A DNA stretch of 20,798 nucleotides from a virus. Shown here piece by piece: positions 718-16,796 of the stretch; within the stretch, counting starts at the first letter, position 1; each line of letters begins with the position of its first letter. Both the position numbers and the translations under genes were made by a program. A model generated the notes under the pieces. That model was not told the origin of the DNA. It saw only the letters and a list, made by a program, of their open reading frames with translations, and did no database searches. The stretch covers positions 1 through 20,798 of IMG/VR virus record IMGVR_UViG_3300049484_000117; one strand, 5' to 3'.

Positions 718-2416
718 ACCCGACCCGTGGGGCATCGTCCTACCGGCGAAAGACAAAGGCCGCAAGGTCATAAAGAACCGCATTCTCCCGATGTTCCGCA
801 ACACTGAACCCCTGCGCGAGTTGTTCACCGATTCGGCGCACGACCTACAGAACGAACAGCTCCAACTCGCCAACGGGTTTCTGTTCCATCTCATGTGGTC
901 GGGTAGTGCGTCAAGCATGGCATCCGATCCTATGCGGGGCGTCATCTGTGACGAGGTGAACAAGTACGAGCAGTGGGTTGGTGACGAGGCCGATCCGGTA
1001 ACGCTGTCGGCTATGCGGCTGCGGTCCTATGGCTCGCGGGCCTTGCAGATCAACATCAGCACGCCGACGAATCGCTTCGGGCGCATAACAGAGCTATACG
1101 AGTCATCCGAGGTGAAGCTGGAGTTCTGTGTCCCGTGCCCGCATTGTGGCAAGTTCCAGCCGTTGGCGTTCGAGAGACTACGGTGGAACAAGGTGGAGGG
1201 CGAAAGCCATGAAGTTCAGGCCGTGCGAATCCTCGCGGAATCCGATGCGGTACACTACCAGTGTACACACTGCGACGGAAGTATCTACGAACGGGACCGC
1301 CGGGCAATGGAAAACCTGGGGCGGTATAGTTCCGAGGACGGAACCGTTGAAGATGCCGAGACCGTCAATCGCTTTCCCGATCGGACGCGAGTAGGAATAC
1401 AGATCAGCGCCCTGCATTGCCTTTGGGTCTCGTGGGCTGAGATTGTTGCCGAGTTCCTACGCTGTGGGAAGTCGCTCACCAAGCTGTTCAACTTCAGGAC
1501 TCAGACACTCGGCGAGCCATTCGAGCAGCAGATAGAAAAGGCCAAGCCGTCCTTGTTCTCTGGCAAGTCTGCGCGGGCGACACTCGCGGAGGGTGTCTGC
1601 CCGGCGTGGACGATGCGGCTCATCGCGGCGATTGACCCCGGATCGGATCACTTCTGGTTGACGTTGCGGGCGTGGGGGCCGGGGATGCAATCGCAGCGTG
1701 TTTGGCATGGGCGCGTCGAGTCGTTCGATGAGTTGGATCAGCTTCTATGGCATCATCCGTGGCCGGTTGACGGCGGAAAGCAGCCCAGAACGGTTGACTT
1801 TGTTGGCATCGACACGGGCGGAACCGTCGGGGAGGGCGGCGAAACTAGCCGAACTATGCAGGTTTACCGCTGGATTCTGCCCAGAAAATCGCGCGTCCGT
1901 GGCCTGAAGGGGGCATCGAAGCCCCGCGGCAACCTGCGATTATGGAACGGCAAGGGCATTCTGGACACCGGGACCGGCTCAAAACGCGACGGCCGCGAGG
2001 TGCTGCTGACGTATCTGGACACCAACCACTGGCAGGACGAGCTACACGACCTGATCAACCGTGGGTGCGATACCAATCTGACGACGCGTGAGACCGAGAT
2101 GTGGCACCTGAACCAACGCGACGACCAGGCGTACAACGCACATCTGGCCGGCGTCCACAAGGTTGCCGTACGCAAGGGGCTTCAAGTCACGGAAGAGTGG
2201 ATGCCGATCAGCAGACACACTCCGATTCACCTGAGGGACTGCGAAGTATACCAAGTGGCTTTGGCGTACCTATGCCAAGTCCACACCTTGCCGACGGTAG
2301 AACAGATGGCCCATATCGAATCGGTTCAACAGCAGGCGGTTATCGACCAGACGATCAGAAGACCACGAGAAAACCGGGACCCGTGGGAACCTGGTGGCAT
2401 GGCGGAATACCTATGA
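509..2416 (+). CDS. Terminase large subunit, GpA family
   Basis: ATPase/nuclease of the DNA-packaging motor (635 aa; lambda gpA is 641). Visible parts: the family N-terminal signature EWAVKYRTLP with PGPWR and APYLRGIM; a deviant Walker A near residues 49-57 (KAVQIGASE); Walker B with acidic D148-E149 in GVICDEV; a coupling-type motif ISTPTNRFGRI near 183-193; a zinc-finger-like cluster C207, C210, C213, C252, C255; and nuclease-domain acidic positions D376 (AAIDPGSD) and D435 (VGIDTGG). The start is GTG at 509 with GGAG at 496-499, nine bases upstream. The same frame is open back to 413 and there encodes residues (PERLT just before VAEWA) that fit the family, so the real N-terminus may be longer. 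It ends in an ATGA overlap with the methyltransferase gene. Family assignment is strong; the exact start is not. Confidence 0.93.
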   Translation: MAEWAVKYRTLPRGQSSVPGPWRHEEAPYLRGIMTLSTKPGVKELNIQKAVQIGASEACRNIVGRMAHLEPDPWGIVLPAKDKGRKVIKNRILPMFRNTEPLRELFTDSAHDLQNEQLQLANGFLFHLMWSGSASSMASDPMRGVICDEVNKYEQWVGDEADPVTLSAMRLRSYGSRALQINISTPTNRFGRITELYESSEVKLEFCVPCPHCGKFQPLAFERLRWNKVEGESHEVQAVRILAESDAVHYQCTHCDGSIYERDRRAMENLGRYSSEDGTVEDAETVNRFPDRTRVGIQISALHCLWVSWAEIVAEFLRCGKSLTKLFNFRTQTLGEPFEQQIEKAKPSLFSGKSARATLAEGVCPAWTMRLIAAIDPGSDHFWLTLRAWGPGMQSQRVWHGRVESFDELDQLLWHHPWPVDGGKQPRTVDFVGIDTGGTVGEGGETSRTMQVYRWILPRKSRVRGLKGASKPRGNLRLWNGKGILDTGTGSKRDGREVLLTYLDTNHWQDELHDLINRGCDTNLTTRETEMWHLNQRDDQAYNAHLAGVHKVAVRKGLQVTEEWMPISRHTPIHLRDCEVYQVALAYLCQVHTLPTVEQMAHIESVQQQAVIDQTIRRPRENRDPWEPGGMAEYL

Positions 2417-3114
2417 GCACTACAGACGCAGAACGGGCGGCATGGACGGATTGGCATGCACGGGTAACGCTTCAATACCCGGATACTGAGCTGGTGCGTC
2501 TTGTGCATCGGCTGGATAGTCCTATCAGCGAAGCCTATCCGAAGGCTATTGTCCTCGGTTGCGGGACCGGACGGCACGTTTCCAGCCTGGCCCGCGAGGG
2601 CTACTCCGTCTGTGGGTGCGACATCCTTGAAAGTGCGATAGGAACGGCACGCGAACGCCTGAAACGCGAAGGGTTGTATAGTGAGGTGTGGACTGGCGAC
2701 GCCGATTCAACGGGGGCACCGGATCAGAGCTTCGATCTGGTGGTCGCGTGGGGGCTTCTCATGTCTACGTCACGAGACAAGGCCGTTGCGATTCTCCGCG
2801 AGGCCTACCGAGTACTAAAGCCAGGCGGGCACCTGATAGGTAACTGGCGAACTACCGACGATTGTCTAACCCGGTGTGGCCTGAAGATGCCGAATCTGGG
2901 GCCTAACACGTTCGTATTGGACGCCAGGGCCAACGAGCACGGCTTGACCGGCTGCACCTACAACTTCGCGAGCAGGCTGGAAATAGCCCAACTGCTTGAA
3001 GATCCGCACGCTGGGGCGGCGTTTCACATAGAGAACCTGGAACGCAAAGACTTCTGGACGGATAACCTGTCGCATCGCTTTAGCTGGTGGATGTTCACCG
3101 CGAGGAAGCCATGA
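2413..3114 (+). CDS. Class I SAM-dependent methyltransferase
   Basis: A 233-residue protein with a Methyltransf_11-type Rossmann fold. Motif I is AIVLGCGTGRHV (about residues 49-60), the acidic end of strand 2 is in CGCDILES, motif III/IV is FDLVVAWGLLM, and motif VI is LKPGGHLIGNW. There is no DNA-methylase DPPY/NPPY motif and no target-recognition domain, so a small-molecule, protein or modified-base substrate is more likely than adenine/cytosine DNA methylation, but the substrate cannot be named. The ATG at 2413 overlaps the terminase stop (ATGA), which suggests translational coupling. The frame is open further upstream, but that stretch is antiframe terminase coding and is rejected. It sits between the terminase and gpW-like genes, where lambda has nothing, so it looks like an inserted accessory (moron-type) gene. 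Confidence 0.85.
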   Translation: MSTTDAERAAWTDWHARVTLQYPDTELVRLVHRLDSPISEAYPKAIVLGCGTGRHVSSLAREGYSVCGCDILESAIGTARERLKREGLYSEVWTGDADSTGAPDQSFDLVVAWGLLMSTSRDKAVAILREAYRVLKPGGHLIGNWRTTDDCLTRCGLKMPNLGPNTFVLDARANEHGLTGCTYNFASRLEIAQLLEDPHAGAAFHIENLERKDFWTDNLSHRFSWWMFTARKP

Positions 3115-3278
3115 TTCTGATACGGCGTCGGAAAAGGGTAGTCCTTCCAATTCCGCCAGTGTGCCCCAAGTGCGGCGTCAATGCAATATTTGTCTATGCC
3201 ACGAGGGGCCAAGTCCGCTGGACTAAGTGCGGTAACTGTAATAATTTGTCAAAGTTCGCAGCAGATGCCACACCCTAG
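3111..3278 (+). CDS. Small zinc-ribbon protein
   Basis: A 55-residue basic protein with two CxxC knuckles, C18-P-K-C21 and C40-G-N-C43, spaced as in a zinc ribbon. The N-terminus is arginine/lysine-rich (IRRRKR). ATG at 3111 overlaps the methyltransferase stop (ATGA) and has GAGGAAG at 3102-3108 upstream. A longer in-frame start at 3087 lies inside the methyltransferase gene and is less likely given the coupling. Its role is unknown; nucleic-acid or protein binding is a reasonable guess from the fold. It forms a two-gene insert with the methyltransferase. Confidence 0.7.
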   Translation: MILIRRRKRVVLPIPPVCPKCGVNAIFVYATRGQVRWTKCGNCNNLSKFAADATP

Positions 3279-3326: not shown

Positions 3327-3551
3327 ATGGCTGATCCGACCTGGGCAGAAATCAAATCCGCATTGCTGACCACGTACAAAGCGGTGGCTCAGCAAGCCTA
3401 CTCTGCGCAATCGATGGCCGATCGCAACTATGCCGTAGTGAAGCTATCCGAGTTACGTGAAGCGATCTCCGACGCGGATAGACACATCTCTGCGGAGAGT
3501 GCATCAACAGGCGGATCTTGTGCGGTTGTGGTCTTTGGTGATCCGGCATGA
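3327..3551 (+). CDS. gpW-like head-tail joining protein
   Basis: A 74-residue protein placed between terminase and portal, exactly where lambda has W (68 aa). The sequence shows an N-terminal helix (TWAEIKSALLTTYKAV), a central strand-like stretch and a second helix VKLSELREAISDADRHI, matching the gpW pattern of helix, short hairpin, then a S-x-x-x-L-x-x-x-I helix. gpW-type proteins bind below the portal and complete the head before tail attachment. The ribosome binding site is weak (AGG at 3308-3310). It ends in an ATGA overlap with the portal gene. The assignment rests on size, position and a helix pattern, not on strong identity. Confidence 0.65.
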   Translation: MADPTWAEIKSALLTTYKAVAQQAYSAQSMADRNYAVVKLSELREAISDADRHISAESASTGGSCAVVVFGDPA

Positions 3552-5182
3552 TGCTGACCTTTCTCGATCGTGCGATTGGCTACGTTTCTCCTACTTGGGG
3601 CAAGCGGCGGGCTTTTTCTCGCCTTGGCATGGCATCGGCAGACGAGCAGATTTCTGCCCTCCGGTCGCTGGACGCCGCTGGCAAAGGCAGGCTTCAGAAG
3701 GATTGGCCCACCGATCCACAGTCCGCTGATCAGCAGACGATAGACGACCTGTCATCCACGAACGCAAGGGCACGCCGGGCAGTGTTCAACGACTGGGCGG
3801 CGTCTTCGCTGGTCAAGGCGTATGTGCGGCACGTCGTCGGCAAGGGCTTGTCCGCCAAGTCCACTGGTAAGGACCCGATCACTAATACCCCTCTGACGGA
3901 TTGGAACCGGCAGGCAACGAGGTATTTCGACCGGTGGGCACGCGATCCCCGCCGATGCGACGTGGAGCGGCGGCGCACCTTCCGCATGCTCCAGCGGCTA
4001 TGGGTTCGCGAGCTGGTCACGGTTGGCGAGACGTTCATTCGCATTGTCCGCAGGGCGGGCAAGGACGTATCGCTACAGACGTTAGAACCCGAACAGCTCT
4101 ATACCGACCTGGCGTATTCACCGGATGGCGGGGCGATTAAGGGCGGTATCGAGGTTGACGAGTTCGGCGCACCGGTGGCGTATTGGTTCTATCCGAAGAA
4201 TCACCCGCTGGAAGGCGGCGTAGGCGTTCGCAGATCCACCGGAGCGGGCGACGATCCTACCAGTCCGGTAAGAATTCCCGAAGACGAGGTAATCCACCTG
4301 TACGACCCAGAGCGTGTACGGCAGGCCCGCGGCTTGTCATTCATGGCTTCGGTGCTCGTTAAGCTGTGGCACCTGTCGGCATACGATCAGTATCAGCTCG
4401 TCAAGGCACGTATAGAGGCTTGTGTTGGAGCCACGATAGAAACCGATCCGCGGTACGACAACGGGCAGAATCTAACCGGGTTGCCCGTGCCGTCTGGGCA
4501 GTCGTCTACCGATGTGAACGGGGCCCGCCAACTGTTCACCGAGCCGGGCATGATGTGGGAGGCTCCGGCCGGCAAGCGGGTAAACTGGATGCCACCGGTA
4601 AACCCTGGCAACAACTATCAGCCGTTTACCCGCAAGCAGGTAGCCGACTTCGCAGCCGGTGCCGGTAAGGATCTTCCGCAAGTCACGCGGGACTTCTCAG
4701 GCAATACCTACAGCGGGCAGCGGCAGGGGATGTTGGAGGATGAGAAGGAGACGGACGCGCTACAGCAGATCATCACCGATCTGGCGTGCAGGCCGATCCG
4801 CCGCGACGTTCTGACTCAGGCCGTGTTGAACACCGAGACCGATTCATCCGAGCATCGTTTGGACGCTCCCGAACATTGGAACGACGGCGATGAGGAATGG
4901 ACCGAAGCCTATCTCTGTGACGAATGGCGCGGCCCACCGAAGGGCTGGATAGATCCACGCAACGAGGCGGACGCCACCAAGACGCTGCTGGACACGTTCC
5001 AAACGACTCTACGGGACGAACTGAATGAGCAGGATGGGGACTGGGAAGACAAGATCATCCAGCGCGGGGAAGAACTGAAGCTGATCCGCAAGAGTACGCC
5101 AACTGAACAACCATCGGTGACGCCGGAAGGCGAGCCGGTAGGAGTAGAAGACAATGCCACTGCCGACACCGAATCCGAATGA
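3548..5182 (+). CDS. Phage portal protein, lambda gpB family
   Basis: Forms the dodecameric ring at the DNA-entry vertex and binds terminase and head-completion proteins. It has 544 aa, against 533 for lambda gpB. Family-like stretches include RARRAVFNDWAASSLVKAYV followed by VVGKGL, the FIRIVRR strand, VIHLYDPERVRQARGLSF near the middle, the helix LSAYDQYQLVKARIEA, and the C-terminal GPPKGWIDPRNEADATK, which corresponds to the conserved W-x-DP-x-KE region of this family. Two adjacent ATGs (3548, 3551) are possible starts; the first overlaps the gpW-like stop. The last 29 bases overlap the protease-capsid gene. The C-terminal tail is acidic and Thr/Glu-rich, typical of an unstructured end. 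Confidence 0.93.
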   Translation: MMLTFLDRAIGYVSPTWGKRRAFSRLGMASADEQISALRSLDAAGKGRLQKDWPTDPQSADQQTIDDLSSTNARARRAVFNDWAASSLVKAYVRHVVGKGLSAKSTGKDPITNTPLTDWNRQATRYFDRWARDPRRCDVERRRTFRMLQRLWVRELVTVGETFIRIVRRAGKDVSLQTLEPEQLYTDLAYSPDGGAIKGGIEVDEFGAPVAYWFYPKNHPLEGGVGVRRSTGAGDDPTSPVRIPEDEVIHLYDPERVRQARGLSFMASVLVKLWHLSAYDQYQLVKARIEACVGATIETDPRYDNGQNLTGLPVPSGQSSTDVNGARQLFTEPGMMWEAPAGKRVNWMPPVNPGNNYQPFTRKQVADFAAGAGKDLPQVTRDFSGNTYSGQRQGMLEDEKETDALQQIITDLACRPIRRDVLTQAVLNTETDSSEHRLDAPEHWNDGDEEWTEAYLCDEWRGPPKGWIDPRNEADATKTLLDTFQTTLRDELNEQDGDWEDKIIQRGEELKLIRKSTPTEQPSVTPEGEPVGVEDNATADTESE

Positions 5183-7496
5183 GGCAGAGACCGATTTCGT
5201 ATCTCGCTGCATGGGCGACGAAACGACCGTAGGCGACTTCCCCGACGAATCGCAACGGGCGGCGGTATGTCATGGCCAATGGGACAAGTCGCAAGAGCAG
5301 ATGTCTTCCGAAGGGCAGATGACTTCGTTCCGCTCTAGCGACGGTTCGGGCCTGGTCGTTGACCGGGAAGCTCGGATCATTCGCAATGTCTCCGTTATCA
5401 CGAGAGGCCCGGCGAAGGGTCACGGCCTATTCGTCGATGATACCACGCTCCAGCAAGTCCTCGGTTTTATGCGGTACTTCAAAAATGGCGTAAGGGTTCG
5501 GGTATCTCACCCCGAAATACAGCCGGACGGCACCAGGACGGACGGCGCGACAATGCTTTTGGGCAAGGGCATCAATCCCCGCATAGAGGGGGATCACGTC
5601 CGATGCGATGTCCGTTTCGGTGCCTACGCCAACGACACGGCCAAGGGCCGGATGGGCGACTATTTCCTGGGGCTGGCCGCAGAGGACCCCGACAGCTTCG
5701 GCTTGTCCATTTACTTCATGCAGGCCAAACCAGAGATCAAAGACGGGCGTAAAAATGTCCGTATAGCGTCGTTGCATTCCCTCGACTTCTCGGATGATCC
5801 CGCCACGAATCCTGACGGGCTCATGTCTGCAAATACGGGCGCGCAATCGGTGCCGCCTGACACTACCACGAAAGGAGATTTTCCGATGGCTGACGAGAAA
5901 AAGGAAACTCAGGCACCGGTGGAGGTGCCCGCGACCGAGCCCGCGAAGTTCACGGCTCAGGAACCCAAAGTCGATGTCAACGAGGTTGTCCGTATCGCCA
6001 TGATTACGGAACGCGAGCGGATCGAAAAGCTCACCGCGTTGTGCAAGACGTACAAGATCGGGCCAACGGTCTTTCGGGCGTTGATCGACAGTGGCGCGGA
6101 CGAGACCCAAGCAAAGGCCGCGATTCTCGACGCTCGCACTACGCTCGCTGTTCCGTCTGACACCCGCGTTGAAGTGGGCGAAGACCTGAACCGCAGTACG
6201 CTGACCGCAGCGGTGGAAGACGCCATTGCCCTGAAGGCCGGTTGTCGACTCGTCAAGACCGACGATGAAGGCAACGTGGAGATTGATGAGAACCATACCG
6301 GCTTCTCCGTCAACGAGGGCGGCGCGAGCCACCACACGCTGACCGTCGGGCGCAAGGCCCACGACCGGGCGACTGAGTTCCGCAATCGTCGGCTCGTGGA
6401 CATCGGACGGATGTATTTTGAGAAGATGGGGCATACGGGCCTTCGCAACATCAACGACCTCCAGATCGCCGATTGGATGTTGAACCCGCACAAAATGACC
6501 GGGTTCAACGCTCCGCTCGGCACGGCGGACTTCAGCAACATCCTCGCGAACGTGATGAACAAGTCACTCCGCAAGGCATACGTTGAAGCCCCCGTAAAGT
6601 GGCCTATCTGGTGCGTTCGCGGTACGGCGGCCGACTTTAAGACGATCACCCGCGCTCAGTTGATGGGCGTTCCGGGTATGCCCAAGGTGCCGGAAGGTGC
6701 CGAGTACGGGTATGCCCACGTCGTCGATCAGAAAGAGACGTTCACCCTGGCGACGTATGGCAAGATCGTCAAGATCACCCGCCAGTGCGTCATCAATGAC
6801 GACCTTGGCGCATTCAACCGTCTTCCGACGCAGCTCGCCAACGCGGCCAAGCGGCTGGAAGACTACCTCGCGTTCGATCAGCTCATCGGCAATACGACGA
6901 TGGCCGACGGCGGAACGCTGTTCAACGCTACGGCCGTGACCTCCAGCGGTGGCCACTACAACTACTTGAGCAGCGGTTCGGGTGCGCCGACGGTGGCCTA
7001 TGTGTCGGGCCTGGCCAAGATGATGCGGAAGCAGGTTGCGTGGGATAAGTACTCTCAGAAGTACCTGAGCGACACGACCAACATACCCAACCCCGACAAG
7101 GTTGCCGGGTATCTCGACTTGGACCCGGCGATCATCCTCGTGCCCACCGAATACAGCGAGGTGGTCAAGCAACTATACACGTCGCCCATTGATCCGACCG
7201 CGACCTATGGCCACGCCAGCAACCCCTGGCAGGGCGGTCTGATTCCGGTTGTGTCGGCCCAGATGTCCGACGTTACCCCGACCGGTGGCGGTGCCGCTGC
7301 GACCGTCTGGTATCTGTCCGCTTCGCCGTCCGTGATCGACACCGTTGAAGTGTGCTTCTTGGAAGGCGAGCAGCAGCCGGTTATCGAACGCGAAGTCGAT
7401 TTCATGTCCGATGCACTGGCGGTCAAGGTTCGCCATACCGTCGCGTCCGCTCCGCTGGAGTGGCGTGGCATGGCGAAGACGATCGGAACTGCGTAG
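5154..7496 (+). CDS. Prohead protease / scaffold / major capsid fusion protein
   Basis: One 780-residue ORF combines three head functions. Residues 1-45 carry a short Cys-containing module (DFVSRCMGD ... QRAAVCHGQW) that I recall from other phage protease N-termini. Residues about 60-225 look like a serine protease of the prohead type, with candidate catalytic H119 (RVSHPE) and S185 (SFGLSIYF). Residues about 245-430 are charged and helical, scaffold-like. Residues about 430-780 resemble the Mu gpT-like major capsid protein (e.g. WPIWCVRGTAADFKTI, KIVKITRQCVINDDLGAF). The protease would remove the scaffold after shell assembly. ATG at 5154 has GGAG at 5141-5144 and overlaps the portal gene by 29 bases. 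Fused protease-capsid proteins are known in some phages. The fusion is seen directly as one open frame; domain borders are estimates. Confidence 0.88.
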   Translation: MPLPTPNPNEAETDFVSRCMGDETTVGDFPDESQRAAVCHGQWDKSQEQMSSEGQMTSFRSSDGSGLVVDREARIIRNVSVITRGPAKGHGLFVDDTTLQQVLGFMRYFKNGVRVRVSHPEIQPDGTRTDGATMLLGKGINPRIEGDHVRCDVRFGAYANDTAKGRMGDYFLGLAAEDPDSFGLSIYFMQAKPEIKDGRKNVRIASLHSLDFSDDPATNPDGLMSANTGAQSVPPDTTTKGDFPMADEKKETQAPVEVPATEPAKFTAQEPKVDVNEVVRIAMITERERIEKLTALCKTYKIGPTVFRALIDSGADETQAKAAILDARTTLAVPSDTRVEVGEDLNRSTLTAAVEDAIALKAGCRLVKTDDEGNVEIDENHTGFSVNEGGASHHTLTVGRKAHDRATEFRNRRLVDIGRMYFEKMGHTGLRNINDLQIADWMLNPHKMTGFNAPLGTADFSNILANVMNKSLRKAYVEAPVKWPIWCVRGTAADFKTITRAQLMGVPGMPKVPEGAEYGYAHVVDQKETFTLATYGKIVKITRQCVINDDLGAFNRLPTQLANAAKRLEDYLAFDQLIGNTTMADGGTLFNATAVTSSGGHYNYLSSGSGAPTVAYVSGLAKMMRKQVAWDKYSQKYLSDTTNIPNPDKVAGYLDLDPAIILVPTEYSEVVKQLYTSPIDPTATYGHASNPWQGGLIPVVSAQMSDVTPTGGGAAATVWYLSASPSVIDTVEVCFLEGEQQPVIEREVDFMSDALAVKVRHTVASAPLEWRGMAKTIGTA
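5871..5877 (+). promoter_or_regulatory. Internal ribosome binding site within fusion gene
   Basis: AAAGGAG lies 8 bases before the in-frame ATG at 5886, at the join between protease and scaffold-like regions. The position exactly at a domain border argues that it is functional and not a chance match. Confidence 0.65.
5886..7496 (+). CDS. Nested in-frame start: scaffold-major capsid protein
   Basis: Inside the fusion ORF, an ATG at codon 245 is preceded by AAAGGAG (5871-5877) with an 8-base spacer, one of the best ribosome binding sites in the window. Translation from here gives a 536-residue protein starting MADEKKETQAP, lacking the protease. This resembles lambda C/Nu3, where scaffold is made from an internal start in the protease gene, but here the nested product would also carry the capsid domain. 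It would solve the stoichiometry problem: many capsid copies, few protease-bearing ones. The start signal is seen directly; its use is inferred. Confidence 0.7.
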   Translation: MADEKKETQAPVEVPATEPAKFTAQEPKVDVNEVVRIAMITERERIEKLTALCKTYKIGPTVFRALIDSGADETQAKAAILDARTTLAVPSDTRVEVGEDLNRSTLTAAVEDAIALKAGCRLVKTDDEGNVEIDENHTGFSVNEGGASHHTLTVGRKAHDRATEFRNRRLVDIGRMYFEKMGHTGLRNINDLQIADWMLNPHKMTGFNAPLGTADFSNILANVMNKSLRKAYVEAPVKWPIWCVRGTAADFKTITRAQLMGVPGMPKVPEGAEYGYAHVVDQKETFTLATYGKIVKITRQCVINDDLGAFNRLPTQLANAAKRLEDYLAFDQLIGNTTMADGGTLFNATAVTSSGGHYNYLSSGSGAPTVAYVSGLAKMMRKQVAWDKYSQKYLSDTTNIPNPDKVAGYLDLDPAIILVPTEYSEVVKQLYTSPIDPTATYGHASNPWQGGLIPVVSAQMSDVTPTGGGAAATVWYLSASPSVIDTVEVCFLEGEQQPVIEREVDFMSDALAVKVRHTVASAPLEWRGMAKTIGTA

Positions 7497-10302: not shown

Positions 10303-11220
10303 ATGATCCTGAGCCGCAAGAAAACGCTGGTAATGAAGACTGAGACTACGGCGGGGACTGCCGAGACCCTAACCGCTGCCGAAGCGGTATACGTTGGGTT
10401 CGATGTGTCGATCACACCCGATGAGAACTTCATCGAGCGAGCGGCTCAGGGCACGTTCAGCCACGAAGCGGGCGTTCAACCTCCGCAGACTGGTACTGCC
10501 AAGTTCAAAATCGAATTGGGCGGCAACGGTGCGAGCGTGCCGCCGGCGTGGGCAACGACCATTTTCCCGGCTCTGGGGCTCGTCGCGTCTGGTGCGGTGT
10601 TTAAGGTGAAGTCAGAGGCTCCAGGAACCAGCACCAAGACGCTGACGATCGAAGTCCGCAACGACGGCCTGGTCGATCGGATCTACGGTGCGATGGGGGA
10701 CGCTGAGTTCACCTTCCAGAACGGTCAAATTGCGATGGCTGACTGCACGTTCCGTGGAATCTACTGGAACGGTAGCGGGACCACGTTCACGCCGACCTAC
10801 CCGACGATCAAAACCGCTAGATTCGATCATGCCAGCGTGCTGTGGACATCAACAATCCCCTGCTCCACGGCATCCATCAAACTCGGCAACGACGTACAGG
10901 TCGTGCAGGATGCTACCACTAGCACGGGCTTCAAGTACGCTGTCATCACCGGACGCAAGGTTGCCGGCGACTTGAACCCCGAATCAGCACGGGCCAACGC
11001 TCACAGGATCGCACAGACGGCAAACACCGAGGCTCAGCTTACTATCGCCGTACACAACGACACGGCGGCATTCAATACCGCTACGTTTGTAATGCCGAAG
11101 GCGCAACGCCGCAATGTATCTCCTGCCGATGATGGCGGCGTTCGGCGTGATGCCGTGTCGTTCCAGGCGAACAGATCTGCGGCAGCGGGGGACGATGAAT
11201 TGACCGTGACATTCTCATAG
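10303..11220 (+). CDS. Tail tube (major tail) protein
   Basis: A 305-residue beta-rich protein in the position of lambda gpV. The first part (KTLVMKTETTAGTAETLTAAEAV) is the common start of siphophage tube proteins, followed by Gly/Thr-rich strands such as GTAKFKIELGGNG, TKTLTIEVRNDG, the FTFQNGQIAMADCTFRGIYW region, and a C-terminal strand DDELTVTFS. It would polymerise in hexameric rings around the tape measure to form the tail tube. It is longer than lambda gpV (246 aa), so an added domain is possible. The start at 10303 has AGGG at 10293-10296, six bases before it. Confidence 0.75.
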   Translation: MILSRKKTLVMKTETTAGTAETLTAAEAVYVGFDVSITPDENFIERAAQGTFSHEAGVQPPQTGTAKFKIELGGNGASVPPAWATTIFPALGLVASGAVFKVKSEAPGTSTKTLTIEVRNDGLVDRIYGAMGDAEFTFQNGQIAMADCTFRGIYWNGSGTTFTPTYPTIKTARFDHASVLWTSTIPCSTASIKLGNDVQVVQDATTSTGFKYAVITGRKVAGDLNPESARANAHRIAQTANTEAQLTIAVHNDTAAFNTATFVMPKAQRRNVSPADDGGVRRDAVSFQANRSAAAGDDELTVTFS

Positions 11221-11231
11221 AGGGAGGACCA

Positions 11232-11615
11232 ATGCCAGCGATTGACCCACGACACAAACAGGAGTTTATCTTTGAGTGTGACGCCGTTCTGCCGGAAGCA
11301 GACAGGCCCACGTTCTTCTGGCGTCCGCTTACGGCGTCTGAGTTTCATCGCGTCGTTGACGCCGATTCCAAGGTGTCCGACGTGCTGGATATGGCGTTGC
11401 TTGGTTGGAAGAACGTACACGACGGGAGCGGAAACGTCGTCGAATTCTCAAGCGGCGTCGTTTCCAGCGTGCTGACTGTAGGCGAGACGGCTACGCTGGC
11501 CGGAGTCGTCATGAAGGCGTCTACGCTGAGGGCAGACGAAAAAAAAGACTCAGGGCAGCAGTTGCCTATCGATACGGGCAGCTCTGCCGACTCTGCACCT
11601 ACGCCAACCGCGTAG
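11232..11615 (+). CDS. Tail assembly chaperone (gpG-like)
   Basis: A 127-residue protein between tail tube and tape measure, the invariant place of the tail chaperone G. It has an N-terminal strand KQEFIFECDAVL, FFWRPLTASEFHRV, and a helical part ending GVVMKASTLRADEKKD. Such chaperones bind the tape measure before tube assembly and are absent from the virion. GGGAGG at 11222-11227 precedes the ATG. Near its end the gene carries eight A residues (11539-11546), at which ribosomes probably shift by -1 to make a longer product. The unshifted tail after the A run is low-complexity Ser/Asp/Thr/Pro. Confidence 0.78.
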   Translation: MPAIDPRHKQEFIFECDAVLPEADRPTFFWRPLTASEFHRVVDADSKVSDVLDMALLGWKNVHDGSGNVVEFSSGVVSSVLTVGETATLAGVVMKASTLRADEKKDSGQQLPIDTGSSADSAPTPTA

Positions 11616-11923
11616 GGAAGACGCCGTGCCATGATCGGCCGTCGCGAGAATCGCCGTACATCTTCGAGTGCCCGACGTGCGAAGGGGTGGGCTGCGGTGA
11701 GTGCAAAGACGGAAAGTATGAAATCGACTCCTGCCCGATTGAATACGTCGGGGCAGAGTTGCACCGCGTTCTGGGAATCTGCGATCTTTACGGAAGAGGT
11801 CTTCCCCCTGTCGCTGGCGGATCGCTCGACCAATGTCAATGGTTCGTTGAGGCGTGCGCCTTTGTCTGGGCAGAGGAAGCCCGCTGGAAAGCGGAGTTGA
11901 AGCTAAAGAATGACCAGGGCTAA
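11232..11923 (+). CDS. gpGT-like frameshift product of the tail chaperone
   Basis: If ribosomes slip by -1 at the A8 run, translation leaves the gpG frame after codon 105 and continues at 11546 (AGA CTC AGG) to the stop at 11921-11923, giving about 230 residues. The -1 frame is open all the way, has no good start of its own near the junction, and encodes convincing protein sequence. The extension is cysteine-rich: C119-x2-C122, C133, then C147-P-T-C150-E-G-V-G, C155-x2-C158 and C168, including a DnaJ-like CxxCxGxG element, followed by a helical end (QWFVEACAFVWAEEARWKAEL). This matches the conserved gpG/gpGT arrangement, in which the T part contacts tail tube protein. The shift is inferred; the two frames and the slippery run are seen. 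Confidence 0.75.
11538..11547 (+). promoter_or_regulatory. Slippery site for -1 frameshift (A8 run)
   Basis: The sequence GAA AAA AAA G in the gpG frame gives an A-AAA-AAG-type slippery heptamer where both tRNAs can re-pair after moving back one base. A short GGCA/TGCC inverted repeat (11554-11557 with 11563-11566) begins six bases downstream; it could help as a stimulator but is weak. The site lies 22 codons before the zero-frame stop, as usual for this gene class. Confidence 0.7.
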
Positions 11924-13406
11924 TACATCTGTCGGGATTGACATCGTTGCCAACGACCGCACGAAGGCCGGTTTCGATTCCGTCCTTGGCAGCGTGCGCG
12001 GCATATCCCACGAGATGGAATCGGCACGCAACCTACTGGCCGGTGGAATCGTCGGCGGGCTGATCGGTCATGAGGCGGTTGGTTTTCTGAAGGAGTCAAT
12101 ACAAGACTATGCGCGGCTCGAAGCCGGGGTGGTTAGTCTGAACGCTGCCCTTCGCAATGTTGGGGACGTTGGAACCAATCCGATAGAAGGATATCACGGG
12201 TTCATAGAACAACTTAAAACTGATACTACAATGACTGGAACCGAGATCAGATCCCTGATGCAACTCGGAGCCAGCATGGGGCATCAAGTTGGGGTTAGTC
12301 TTGAGAATACGACTCGTAATGCGATTGGGCTAGCCAAGGCCCTTGGAATAGACGTTGAATCGGCGTTGCGCCTCGTGATTAAAGCCGAGGCAGGACACTT
12401 CGAGACTTTAGCCCGTTACGGGTTAGTCATGAAGGATGGAGCAACGCAACAGGAAAAAATGGCTTTACTGATAGAGCGATCGGCGGAAGGCTTCAAGATG
12501 GCTTCTGCCGAAGTCGGAACATATATGGGACAGCTCAAGCAACTTGGGAAGGATTGGGAGGAGCTAAGAGTATCCATCGGAAAGAAGATCATCGGACCGA
12601 TTACTATTATCCTACAAGGTGCAAAAGGCACGTTAGACATGGGGCCAGGCGCTACCTATTCCGGTTTTGCGGCCGAAGCCAATCGGAAGATCGTTCAATT
12701 CCTTGAGTGGCTCGGCAAAAAGACTGGCGTATCGCCTGCGGATCTGGCAAAGAACCCGGCGATCAACTGGTTTCGTAAGAATGCGGAGATATGGGAAGGG
12801 AAGGTTGAAGACGTTGTAGGTAAGCAAGTAAGGGAGAAAGCCAAGGAAGCTATAAGGGACTCCAAGTCATCGCTTAGAAGAGATCGTGGTCTCTACGACT
12901 GGAAGAAGGAAACCGAATCTAGGCCCATGTGGAGTCAGGTTGACGAACTCGAAAAGCCCCTTGGGCTTAGTTGGGCTGGTGAGAAAATTGCCGAGGGGAA
13001 GACGGTAGAGGATGCCGCCGAAAAGTACAAAGAGAGCCTAGCGGAAGTCACAAGGAAGATACTCGACGGCATACAGAAAGCAGAAGACGACCTCGGCGAC
13101 TTGCAGATCAAACAGGAGGAGGACTACGCCCGAATCAACAAGCAACAGGAAGAAGAAGCCAAACAAAGAGCAGAGCAATTCGCGAGCGACTATCAGTCAA
13201 CTCGTTACGCCGGATCGGGCGCAACGAGCCGCTTCCTTGACTACAGGCCGCGAATGGGTGACGCACAGAACGAGACGGCCAAGAACACTGGAAAGCTGCT
13301 CGATAAGCAGCAGAGGATGATCGACGCACTGACCGACAATAATCGCCTGTTGCGGGATCTGAGCCGGAACAAGATCGCCGTAGCGGGCGTGAACGGTATG
13401 AATTGA
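11910..13406 (+). CDS. Tail tape measure protein (short)
   Basis: A 498-residue mostly helical protein directly after the gpGT-like frame, the standard position. The N-terminus (SVGIDIVANDRTKAGFDSVLGSVRGI) is typical of tape measures, followed by a hydrophobic helix LLAGGIVGGLIG (about 42-53), long amphipathic helices, and a charged coiled coil at about 365-430 rich in Glu, Lys and Gln. At roughly 0.15 nm per residue it predicts a tail of about 75 nm, short for a siphovirus. No lytic transglycosylase or peptidase domain is seen. Its start overlaps the preceding frame by 14 bases. The region about 12170-12720 is AT-richer than neighbouring genes. It ends in a TGATG overlap. Confidence 0.85.
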   Translation: MTRANTSVGIDIVANDRTKAGFDSVLGSVRGISHEMESARNLLAGGIVGGLIGHEAVGFLKESIQDYARLEAGVVSLNAALRNVGDVGTNPIEGYHGFIEQLKTDTTMTGTEIRSLMQLGASMGHQVGVSLENTTRNAIGLAKALGIDVESALRLVIKAEAGHFETLARYGLVMKDGATQQEKMALLIERSAEGFKMASAEVGTYMGQLKQLGKDWEELRVSIGKKIIGPITIILQGAKGTLDMGPGATYSGFAAEANRKIVQFLEWLGKKTGVSPADLAKNPAINWFRKNAEIWEGKVEDVVGKQVREKAKEAIRDSKSSLRRDRGLYDWKKETESRPMWSQVDELEKPLGLSWAGEKIAEGKTVEDAAEKYKESLAEVTRKILDGIQKAEDDLGDLQIKQEEDYARINKQQEEEAKQRAEQFASDYQSTRYAGSGATSRFLDYRPRMGDAQNETAKNTGKLLDKQQRMIDALTDNNRLLRDLSRNKIAVAGVNGMN

Positions 13407-14431
13407 TGGCAGACATCACACTCACACGACGACCAGGCGGGACAGCAAACGCCACGCGGACACAGGGCGGATCGTCCATCGAATATGACGCACTGTGGAA
13501 CGGGTCTATCAATGACTCGTTGAACGATCCGGCCTATATCCAGCAGTTGCTTGCCGGTCACGCAATCGAGGGCGGCGGGACGTTTCCGAAGCGTGGGCAG
13601 GCATATCCTAATAGCCCGTTCTTGTTCTTCACCGAAGCGGAGGTGAGCGAAGGCCCGCTACTCTATCGCGTGCGGGCCCGCTATGAAACGCTCGACTGGC
13701 AGAACCAAAAAAAGAAGGACGAGCCCGACCCGTTCAAGGACCCACTTGAGGCCGAGTCAACCATCGAGTGGTTCAACATTTCGACCAACGAGCCTATCTC
13801 GTGCGACTCAGAAGGCGTTGCCATCGTCAATCCGTGCGGTCAAGCCTATGACCCACCCGACACGATCGATTACAACGACCGGGGCCTGAGGGTGTCGGTC
13901 AACCGACAGGAATACGATCCGCTGGTGTTCGATCTGTTCAACCGGACGATGTGCAAGACGACGTTTCTTGGCTATCCGATGTACACATTCAGATGGATAG
14001 GAGAGACGGCCGTTGCGATGATAAAAAACGAGTTCGCCCAGTTCTGGCGAGTTACCGGAACATTCCACGTTCGACGAAATAACTACGCAAAAGACAACTG
14101 CTACGCCTTCGATAGTGGCTCATGGGTGGAAGTGCAGGAAACACTCGACTTGGGCTGGGCACTGAAAAAGCGGTGTGAAGGTTTCCTTGCCAAGAATTGG
14201 GACGCCGTTAGCAATCCCCCTGCCCCTGTCTTCATTAAGGATGACGGCACTATTACGTTCACAAAGACCGAAGGTGTAAGGCCACAGGAGCCGGTACTAC
14301 TCAGTATCTATGGATACCCATTAGTCAAACTTCTGGGCAGAGAACCCAAGCCAAACGAAGTACACTATCAGGTTTTCCTGCCCTACGTTCTCGCTGACTA
14401 TTCATTCTTGAAGGACTACTTCAAGCTGTAA
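13406..14431 (+). CDS. Unrecognised tail-tip region protein
   Basis: A 341-residue protein, start ATG at 13406 coupled to the tape-measure stop. I do not recognise it. It is rich in aromatic residues and Asp/Asn (e.g. SIEYDALWNGSINDSL, TFRWIGETAVAMI, VHYQVFLPYVLADYSF) and appears globular with mixed strands; no membrane segment or repeats are seen. Five cysteines are scattered. By position it should act in the distal tail: lambda-type phages place tip and hub proteins here, but no Dit, Tal or gpJ signature is visible. It could be a hub or baseplate protein of an unfamiliar family. Confidence 0.75.
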   Translation: MADITLTRRPGGTANATRTQGGSSIEYDALWNGSINDSLNDPAYIQQLLAGHAIEGGGTFPKRGQAYPNSPFLFFTEAEVSEGPLLYRVRARYETLDWQNQKKKDEPDPFKDPLEAESTIEWFNISTNEPISCDSEGVAIVNPCGQAYDPPDTIDYNDRGLRVSVNRQEYDPLVFDLFNRTMCKTTFLGYPMYTFRWIGETAVAMIKNEFAQFWRVTGTFHVRRNNYAKDNCYAFDSGSWVEVQETLDLGWALKKRCEGFLAKNWDAVSNPPAPVFIKDDGTITFTKTEGVRPQEPVLLSIYGYPLVKLLGREPKPNEVHYQVFLPYVLADYSFLKDYFKL

Positions 14432-15384: not shown

Positions 15385-15836
15385 TGGGCTACCTGATCGA
15401 CGATGAGCTGCTTGGCGAGATTCGGCGATTGATACGCGAAAGCAAGTCGCCCAGCCGTGGCGGTAGTACGCAACGGCCGAATCCGAAGGAGCCAGTAGGC
15501 GAAGATGGTTCGGCGTCAGAAGAATTTTACGCCAAGCTCCAAGGCAGCTTCCCGACGAGCGGCAGTACGCTGACATGCAAGCTCTGGGACCCTGTAGCCG
15601 AAGCGGTCTACGGTGACAACATCACGGTGTACTGTGCGTCTCGGATGTACGGGTGGGGAGCGACCACGAAGTCATTCGCCGCGCCGTCTCTCGGACCTCC
15701 TGCGGTAAGCGGCTGCTGGCCCCAACTGTCGGCGAATGACGATTCATTGCGTGTGGCGATCCATGAGTATGACGCGAACAGCGACCCGGTCTATTGGCTG
15801 GTGAGTCCGCAGTTTACGTACTCGAAGGCGTGCTGA
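15384..15836 (+). CDS. Unrecognised tail-region protein
   Basis: A 150-residue protein, coupled by overlap to genes on both sides. Residues 1-25 form a charged helix (DDELLGEIRRLIRESK), then a Pro/Ser/Gly-rich linker (about 22-50), then a beta-rich C-terminal domain (about 50-150; KLWDPVAEAVYGDNITVYCAS, PVYWLVSPQF). The helix-linker-strand layout suggests an N-terminal attachment segment and an exposed domain, such as an adaptor between fibre and tail. No family is recognised. Confidence 0.7.
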   Translation: MGYLIDDELLGEIRRLIRESKSPSRGGSTQRPNPKEPVGEDGSASEEFYAKLQGSFPTSGSTLTCKLWDPVAEAVYGDNITVYCASRMYGWGATTKSFAAPSLGPPAVSGCWPQLSANDDSLRVAIHEYDANSDPVYWLVSPQFTYSKAC

Positions 15837-16507
15837 TGAGCGATCCGTATCAGGCCATCGACATTGCGAGCGGAGCGGTGCTCCTGGATTCCGTTACTGG
15901 GCCGGTTCGGAATTGCTGCTGCACAGAAATTATTGAATGGGCGTGTAGGCTGTGTCCCGGAAATACTACGATTCCTCTTCCGACTACTGTTCGCTTGACT
16001 CCTCCCGCGTCGTGGCCTTCCATGCCTGCGGTGTATGGATTGTGTACGTCGTGCGAAACCAGTCTAACTCCACCGACTGCAACAAAGACGCTGACGTTGG
16101 CCACTAACACGGCGTCGTCTATCACATGGACAGACGGTGGAGATTCTGACGTACAGGTTGGAAAGTGCGGATCTGGCGAGGGATACTTTGTTGGATTAAC
16201 GTGTGACGGTGCAAATAAGCCCTACGTCGGAGGTATCATTGTAAAACGAACTGCTACATCGAATTGTGGTACAGGAACTAGACCCTATGAGTACCTGCAC
16301 TATTATGCGTTTTCTAGTTTTGATGCAACGAGGTTAACGCAGGATCAGCTTGACGCGATGTGCGCGCAAGAAGACGTTACCTTGACATATCCTGTGTCCG
16401 GAGGAACTACGCAGGCGCTTAGGGTGTGTTACTATGGAACGCCTGTATCACAACATACTGACGCAAATTATCTTGCTGGAACTGTAACCATCGAGTTTTT
16501 GTACTGA
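15836..16507 (+). CDS. Cysteine-rich tail-region protein
   Basis: A 223-residue protein with 12 cysteines, including NCCC near residues 26-29, a C-x2-C (WACRLC) and C-x2-C (LCTSC) and several single cysteines in a Thr/Ser-rich beta-type sequence (TKTLTLATNTASSITW). The layout suggests repeated beta domains stabilised by disulfides or metal, fit for an exposed virion part. The start at 15836 overlaps the previous stop (TGATG); an in-frame ATG at 15794 lies inside the upstream gene and is rejected. The second half is AT-richer than its neighbours (two lines counted by hand gave 40% and 47% GC), hinting at separate ancestry. No known family is recognised. Confidence 0.72.
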   Translation: MSDPYQAIDIASGAVLLDSVTGPVRNCCCTEIIEWACRLCPGNTTIPLPTTVRLTPPASWPSMPAVYGLCTSCETSLTPPTATKTLTLATNTASSITWTDGGDSDVQVGKCGSGEGYFVGLTCDGANKPYVGGIIVKRTATSNCGTGTRPYEYLHYYAFSSFDATRLTQDQLDAMCAQEDVTLTYPVSGGTTQALRVCYYGTPVSQHTDANYLAGTVTIEFLY

Positions 16508-16508
16508 C

Positions 16509-16796
16509 ATGGAAGAGACTTGTGTTTATCTCGGCGGCTGTTGCAGTAACCCGGTATGCAAGCTTGGTCTGCCTCCGCTCTGTGATGGCTGCGGATCGTT
16601 TCAAGAAGCGGAGCAGAAGCAGCCGACGCCTAAGTCCGACCGCCACGCCTGGGAGACCGCGGCGAGGTTCGCGGCAGACGGCTGCAAGCATAGAAACGCG
16701 AAGACGAGACGCTGTTACGCACAAGGGACGTGCGAAATAGACAAGGCGACAATCGGGGCGTGCTCAATGGGCGTTTACCCCGCGTTTGGAAAGTGA
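16509..16796 (+). CDS. Small cysteine-rich protein
   Basis: A 95-residue protein with ten cysteines: C5, C11, C12, C17, C25, C28 in the first third, then C59, C69, C75 and C85. The middle (about 29-58) is helical and charged. Two clusters separated by a helix suggest two small metal- or disulfide-held knots. It begins one base after the previous stop, with no strong ribosome binding site, so translation is probably coupled. It sits next to another cysteine-rich gene and before the tail-spike gene. Function unknown. Confidence 0.65.
   Translation: MEETCVYLGGCCSNPVCKLGLPPLCDGCGSFQEAEQKQPTPKSDRHAWETAARFAADGCKHRNAKTRRCYAQGTCEIDKATIGACSMGVYPAFGK

Follow-up and report, generated by a model that had tools for sequence, protein, structure and literature searches.

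The gene pair that follows the tail tube gene and precedes the tape measure gene in the window (the whole stretch of DNA analysed, 20,798 nucleotides) is most likely a lambda-type G/GT tail assembly chaperone gene. A -1 slip, aided by a Shine-Dalgarno (SD)-like element and a hairpin, would fuse the G-like protein to a cysteine-rich T part, a probable zinc-containing recruiter of the tail tube protein. The G/GT frameshift is among the most conserved recoding events of tailed phages and is in general already known; the frameshift described here is well supported, and the T domain family to which it leads appears to be new.

The gene order across the 20.8 kb viral record matched that of a head and tail module of the lambda type. 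The genes for TerL (509-2416) and portal (3548-5182) were followed by a single 780-aa ORF in which protease and major capsid protein are fused (5154-7496; PHROG 'major head and protease protein'), by neck and tail completion genes, and by the gene for a 305-aa tail tube protein (10303..11220, + strand), the probable partner of the T domain, which was identified by tblastn with Rhodobacter phage tail tubes (E 1e-8). A class I SAM methyltransferase gene (2101-3114) occupied an unusual position between the TerL and portal genes, and a small zinc-ribbon-like protein with weak Pfam zinc-ribbon matches was encoded directly behind it (3087-3278). Two more cysteine-rich ORFs without a known family were seen in the distal tail or lysis region (15794-16507 and 16509-16796).

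As in lambda-type G/GT loci, the gene pair is flanked by the tail tube gene and a tape measure-like ORF (11910..13406, + strand, 498 aa), the latter assigned from its position behind the chaperone and a weak match to a PHROG tape measure family (E 0.044). Behind its SD sequence GAGGGAGGA (11220-11228), the zero frame encodes a G-like tail assembly chaperone of 127 aa (11232..11615, + strand). This assignment was based on homologues at the same position, of which that in RcMenchie is annotated as a tail assembly chaperone, and on a weak match to PHROG_313 'Tail assembly chaperone' (E 0.013); the G part had no match in Pfam, and its structural model matched no PDB fold.

The sequence-only reading had proposed a gpG/gpGT programmed -1 frameshift at this locus, and the features that it described were confirmed. 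The A8 run is at 11539..11546 (+ strand), and the slippery heptamer A_AAA_AAA occupies 11540-11546 in the X_XXY_YYZ register; the zero frame reads GA(A AAA AAA)GAC, which places the heptamer in the tandem-slip register of the G-like ORF. Exactly 22 codons (11547-11612) separate the site from the G stop codon at 11613-11615. In the -1 frame, no stop codon interrupts the sequence between 11360 and the stop at 11921-11923, and the tape measure gene begins at the ATG at 11910. With base 11546 read twice, the T part would extend over 11546..11923 (+ strand), and the predicted GT fusion was computed to be 230 aa, the approximate size given in that reading. T was also said to have no good start of its own: its frame contained no ATG downstream of the slip site, and the lone start upstream of its first cysteine was a TTG located 135 nt upstream of the site, within G. 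An A7 run as such is not rare (three matches in the window vs. 1.43 expected), and A_AAA_AAA departs from the family norm, A_AAA_AAC. Another A7 run was present at 13707-13713, within the ORF at 13403-14431.

Loci of relatives were collected from TerL alignments covering genomes and viral contigs. A T homologue read in the -1 frame relative to a G-like ORF, and placed between the tube and tape measure genes, was found in viral contig L091 first and then in others; a T profile was then searched against whole genomes, and T sequences were searched against isolated phages. The 51 loci read (32 from the first survey, six from isolated phages, and 13 from later genome searches) include close kin and do not represent 51 independent events. 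In all 51, the frame of the T homologue was shifted by -1 relative to a G-like ORF, and T lay before the tape measure gene; L191 begins at a contig edge, and only little of its G is covered. The sequence-only reading had called for a check of the A run in related phages, and an in-register A_AAA_AAN or G_GGA_AAN heptamer was present in 50 of the 51 loci, mostly as A_AAA_AAC and often followed directly by the G stop codon. The sole locus without a canonical heptamer was L195, which has GGAAAAG. In-register A/G heptamers occurred in the long ORFs of these loci at a background of 4.6e-4 per codon, and the short G/T overlap contained one in 30 of the 30 first-survey loci tested, vs. 0.56 expected by chance. 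The T profile includes the KK pair encoded by the heptamer, which may bias what it finds; a profile from which the window and the first 12 columns had been left out still matched the window T (E = 5e-13) and recovered the whole first survey.

The starting points of the T frames were also compared. No start codon whatever was found upstream of the first cysteine in nine of 32 loci, and hence no clear independent start of T; these include the nearest viral relative, L176, whose T is 53% identical and whose heptamer is A_AAA_AAC. Several T frames open just 0-9 nt ahead of the heptamer, which indicates that the homology begins at the slip site. Pattern scans with the G, T, capsid, tube, and TerL proteins of the window yielded no confirmed relatives, the patterns used not being the conserved ones, and no phage match was obtained by tblastn with the window T or G.

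Signals on both sides of the heptamer add to the support for the frameshift. In the window, an internal SD-like GAGGG (11528..11532, + strand) lies 7 nt upstream of the slippery heptamer. Most loci have an SD-like GAGG some 8 nt before the heptamer and some lack it, and the glutamate codon that forms the element was GAG rather than GAA in 17 of 19 loci (9.7 expected; P 2.5e-4). A putative stimulatory hairpin (11554..11588, + strand; arms 11554-11567 and 11576-11588) begins 7 nt past the heptamer, and a second hairpin (11598..11616, + strand) spans the G stop codon. A 69-nt segment folded at this place had a minimum free energy of -33.7 kcal/mol (z -3.84; 0 of 200 shuffles). For the 60 nt downstream of the site in 32 loci, the mean z was -2.18, vs. 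-0.34 for control windows of the same loci (Wilcoxon P 9e-7). Among 12 loci that could be compared without gaps, 89% of the cells of a 14-bp stem were paired, vs. 23-42% for slid controls, and covariation was seen at seven pairs changed on both sides (18 double-changed cells), a score that no shuffle out of 500 attained. In L176, the heptamer and GAGG are present with no strong hairpin (z -0.38), and thus the hairpin is not universal. An Rfam scan of the window gave no match. With the site, the frame, the SD-like element, and the hairpin recurring in dozens of relatives, the proposed programmed frameshift is strongly supported.

By its sequence elements, this arrangement resembles the dnaX cassette of E. 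coli, which, as described in two reports (PMC5600365, PMC7282821), consists of an internal SD upstream, an A-rich heptamer, and a stem-loop downstream. It differs from dnaX in the gene concerned, in the heptamer, which is mostly A_AAA_AAC, in the products, which are tail chaperones, and in the stem, which lies 5-7 nt downstream. From these signals, we infer that the majority of ribosomes would terminate at 11615 to give G and that a minority would slip by -1 on A_AAA_AAA, aided by GAGGG upstream and the hairpin 7 nt downstream, to give the 230-residue GT.

In principle, T could be made through slippage of the RNA polymerase along the A8 run instead of by ribosomal frameshifting, and runs of eight or nine A are indeed present in the window, L223, L214, and L217. 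We consider this quite unlikely, as most members carry A6C or G3A3, which are too short to let the polymerase slip efficiently, and as the -1 tandem-slip register, the SD-like element, and the covarying hairpin, all of which act on the ribosome, are kept. If T were a separate gene translated from its own start by re-initiation behind G, the TTG or GTG right past the site in L015 and others might serve it, and the public annotations of Rhizobium, Microcystis, and Agrobacterium relatives do list a T ORF of its own. The nine loci without a start codon ahead of the first cysteine, the T frames that open 0-9 nt before the heptamer with homology from the slip site on, and the lack of an ATG in the window T make this origin highly improbable. 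Homopolymers are prone to error, and the A8 run or the open -1 frame might be a sequencing or assembly artefact or a chance overlap; the repetition of the same frame relation in 51 loci, including complete genomes of isolated phages, leaves this a negligible chance. Ribosomal frameshifting from G into T accordingly remains the preferred reading of the locus.

The window T part contains 11 cysteines, where the sequence-only reading had counted at least eight, and eight of them are within a probable zinc region (11585..11737, + strand) recognised from the cysteines in the alignments. The core cysteines are T16, T19, T30, and T65 (residues 119, 122, 133, and 168 of the fusion). An insert, CPTC-EGVG-CGEC, occupies T44-T55 (fusion 147-158), and its CPTCEGVG (fusion 147-154) is the CxxCxGxG motif at precisely the residues given earlier. 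In the aligned family, KKLxxAV is followed by CxxC, a third cysteine, a fourth cysteine as CP, and two helices with LPxxGGxLxQ. The CxxC...C...CP core is kept in most members, including diverged ones; a few members have just two or three core cysteines, which makes zinc uncertain in some. A second set of cysteine pairs, often CxxCxGxG, is inserted after the third core cysteine and before the fourth in the window, L176, L091, L015, L124, L177, L179, L181, L182, and L195, and also in L223. The CxxCxGxG insert was found in roughly one-fifth to one-quarter of the members. T thus probably carries a zinc site, for which a structural role is predicted.

The C-terminal part (11738..11920, + strand), defined by the alignments and an AlphaFold model, comprises two helices and the conserved LPxxGGxLxQ motif. 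The model of the window T had a pLDDT of 84.9 and a pTM of 0.78, and its helices (T66-85 and T100-126) had pLDDT values mostly above 90. The window T had no significant match to any Pfam, PHROG, or NCBIfam family or PDB sequence; its model matched no PDB fold (best E 3.0) and gave only weak matches to viral folds (best A0A218MKN6, E 0.12). Judged by these comparisons, T is a new cysteine-rich phage protein family outside the databases searched (Pfam, PHROG, NCBIfam, and PDB). In the Rhodobacter phage RcKemmy (L006:11980-12342), G_GGA_AAC leads into a T part that opens with a cysteine cluster, GKRISALAEWHFGKGAGYCDRCGDPCPDC, and is unmatched by the T profile; given this phage, T parts rich in cysteine may occur more widely, or may have arisen by convergence.

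The cysteine-rich domain of DnaJ has four CxxCxGxG motifs. The sequence-only reading had described the T extension as zinc-type and DnaJ-like, of which the zinc domain stands as probable, whereas the likeness to DnaJ appears to be a resemblance of motif only: the window T shares one such motif, not four, its core is a separate CxxC...C...CP, and CxxCxGxG is optional. A true DnaJ-type zinc co-chaperone domain acting on unfolded clients would account for the motif at fusion 147-154 and its recurrence in several relatives, and one of 30 members gave a marginal DnaJ score (E 0.097). Searched against profile families, the window T gave no DnaJ match in Pfam even at E 10 and none in NCBIfam, no fold match was obtained, and the single motif is missing from most members; we therefore regard a DnaJ-type domain as very unlikely. 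The top Pfam match of the window T was Anti-TRAP, which was non-significant (E 0.1). A DnaJ domain in T was rejected, as were an assembly artefact and a separate T start. The reading that we retain for T is a probable structural zinc site with the CxxC...C...CP core, to which the window adds a CxxCxGxGCxxC pair, and behind it a domain of two helices.

Work on lambda (PMC5009743) shows G coating the tape measure protein and T binding gpV, the tube protein. Of 38 T loci, 34 were directly preceded by a member of one tail-tube family, and among loci picked by TerL alone no T was found without that tube family. The co-occurrence of T with one tube family fits lambda, in which T recruits the tube protein. 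L107 has the same tube family and a different T part in the -1 frame (L107:11340-11729; GRGKKITPRQVLHKVCRAYH...), apparently without the cysteine core, and thus the pairing of T and tube is strong, not absolute. By analogy, the most likely role of T is the recruitment of the tail tube subunit by a zinc-stabilised T domain: G would coat the tape measure protein, T would bring in the tube subunit, and GT would start tube polymerisation and afterwards leave. This role appears to fit better than the folding of the tape measure or tube, which had been suggested from the sequence. An unlikely further idea is that the zinc domain, with two metal sites in the window, serves as a latch, sensitive to metal or redox state, that times the release of GT from the tube; if so, tail assembly of these phages would be zinc-dependent.

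The locus shares with lambda gpG/gpGT and HK97 gp13/gp14 the position between tube and tape measure genes, a short G, a slippery heptamer near the end of G, and a T extension. Lambda T, in contrast, has no cysteine and reaches just E 0.21 with a negative bit score against the T profile, and the lambda slippery site is G_GGA_AAG, whereas here it is mostly A_AAA_AAC, accompanied by the SD-like element, the covarying hairpin, and a cysteine-rich T. Closer counterparts are the Rhodobacter phages RcMenchie and RcZahn and the Rhizobium phages RHph_I4 and L338C, which have the T family, the -1 relation, and the slippery heptamer in common with the window; their T has the four-cysteine core alone, without the CxxCxGxG insert. 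The records of these four phages list unfused ORFs as 'hypothetical' or 'tail assembly chaperone'. In isolated-phage records (L003, L198, L199, L200, L202, and L203), G and T are annotated as separate hypothetical ORFs, or T is missed, as in Alteromonas phage P24, because the frameshift went unrecognised in the public records.

The T profile matched 13 of 237 genomes from the phylum of an Omnitrophota MAG, six of 392 around a Planctomycetota centre, four of 189 around a Myxococcales centre, and nine of 349 around a Thalassospira (Pseudomonadota) centre, with one weak match in 249 genomes around an Acutalibacter centre; the phylum names follow the record titles of these centres. Among isolated phages, the T family was found in those of Rhizobium, Agrobacterium, Rhodobacter, Alteromonas, and Microcystis. 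By these profile matches, the slip site and T domain are shared by phages and prophages of at least four bacterial phyla, with prophages in Planctomycetota, Omnitrophota, Myxococcota, and Pseudomonadota. Searches of the open-access literature for tail chaperones with zinc or cysteine turned up no zinc-type T. The T halves of the family are mostly annotated as separate hypothetical proteins or are overlooked. The family offers a clean comparative set for how the SD-like element, heptamer, and hairpin set the ratio of G to GT, and it allows a test of the paired evolution of T and the tube protein.
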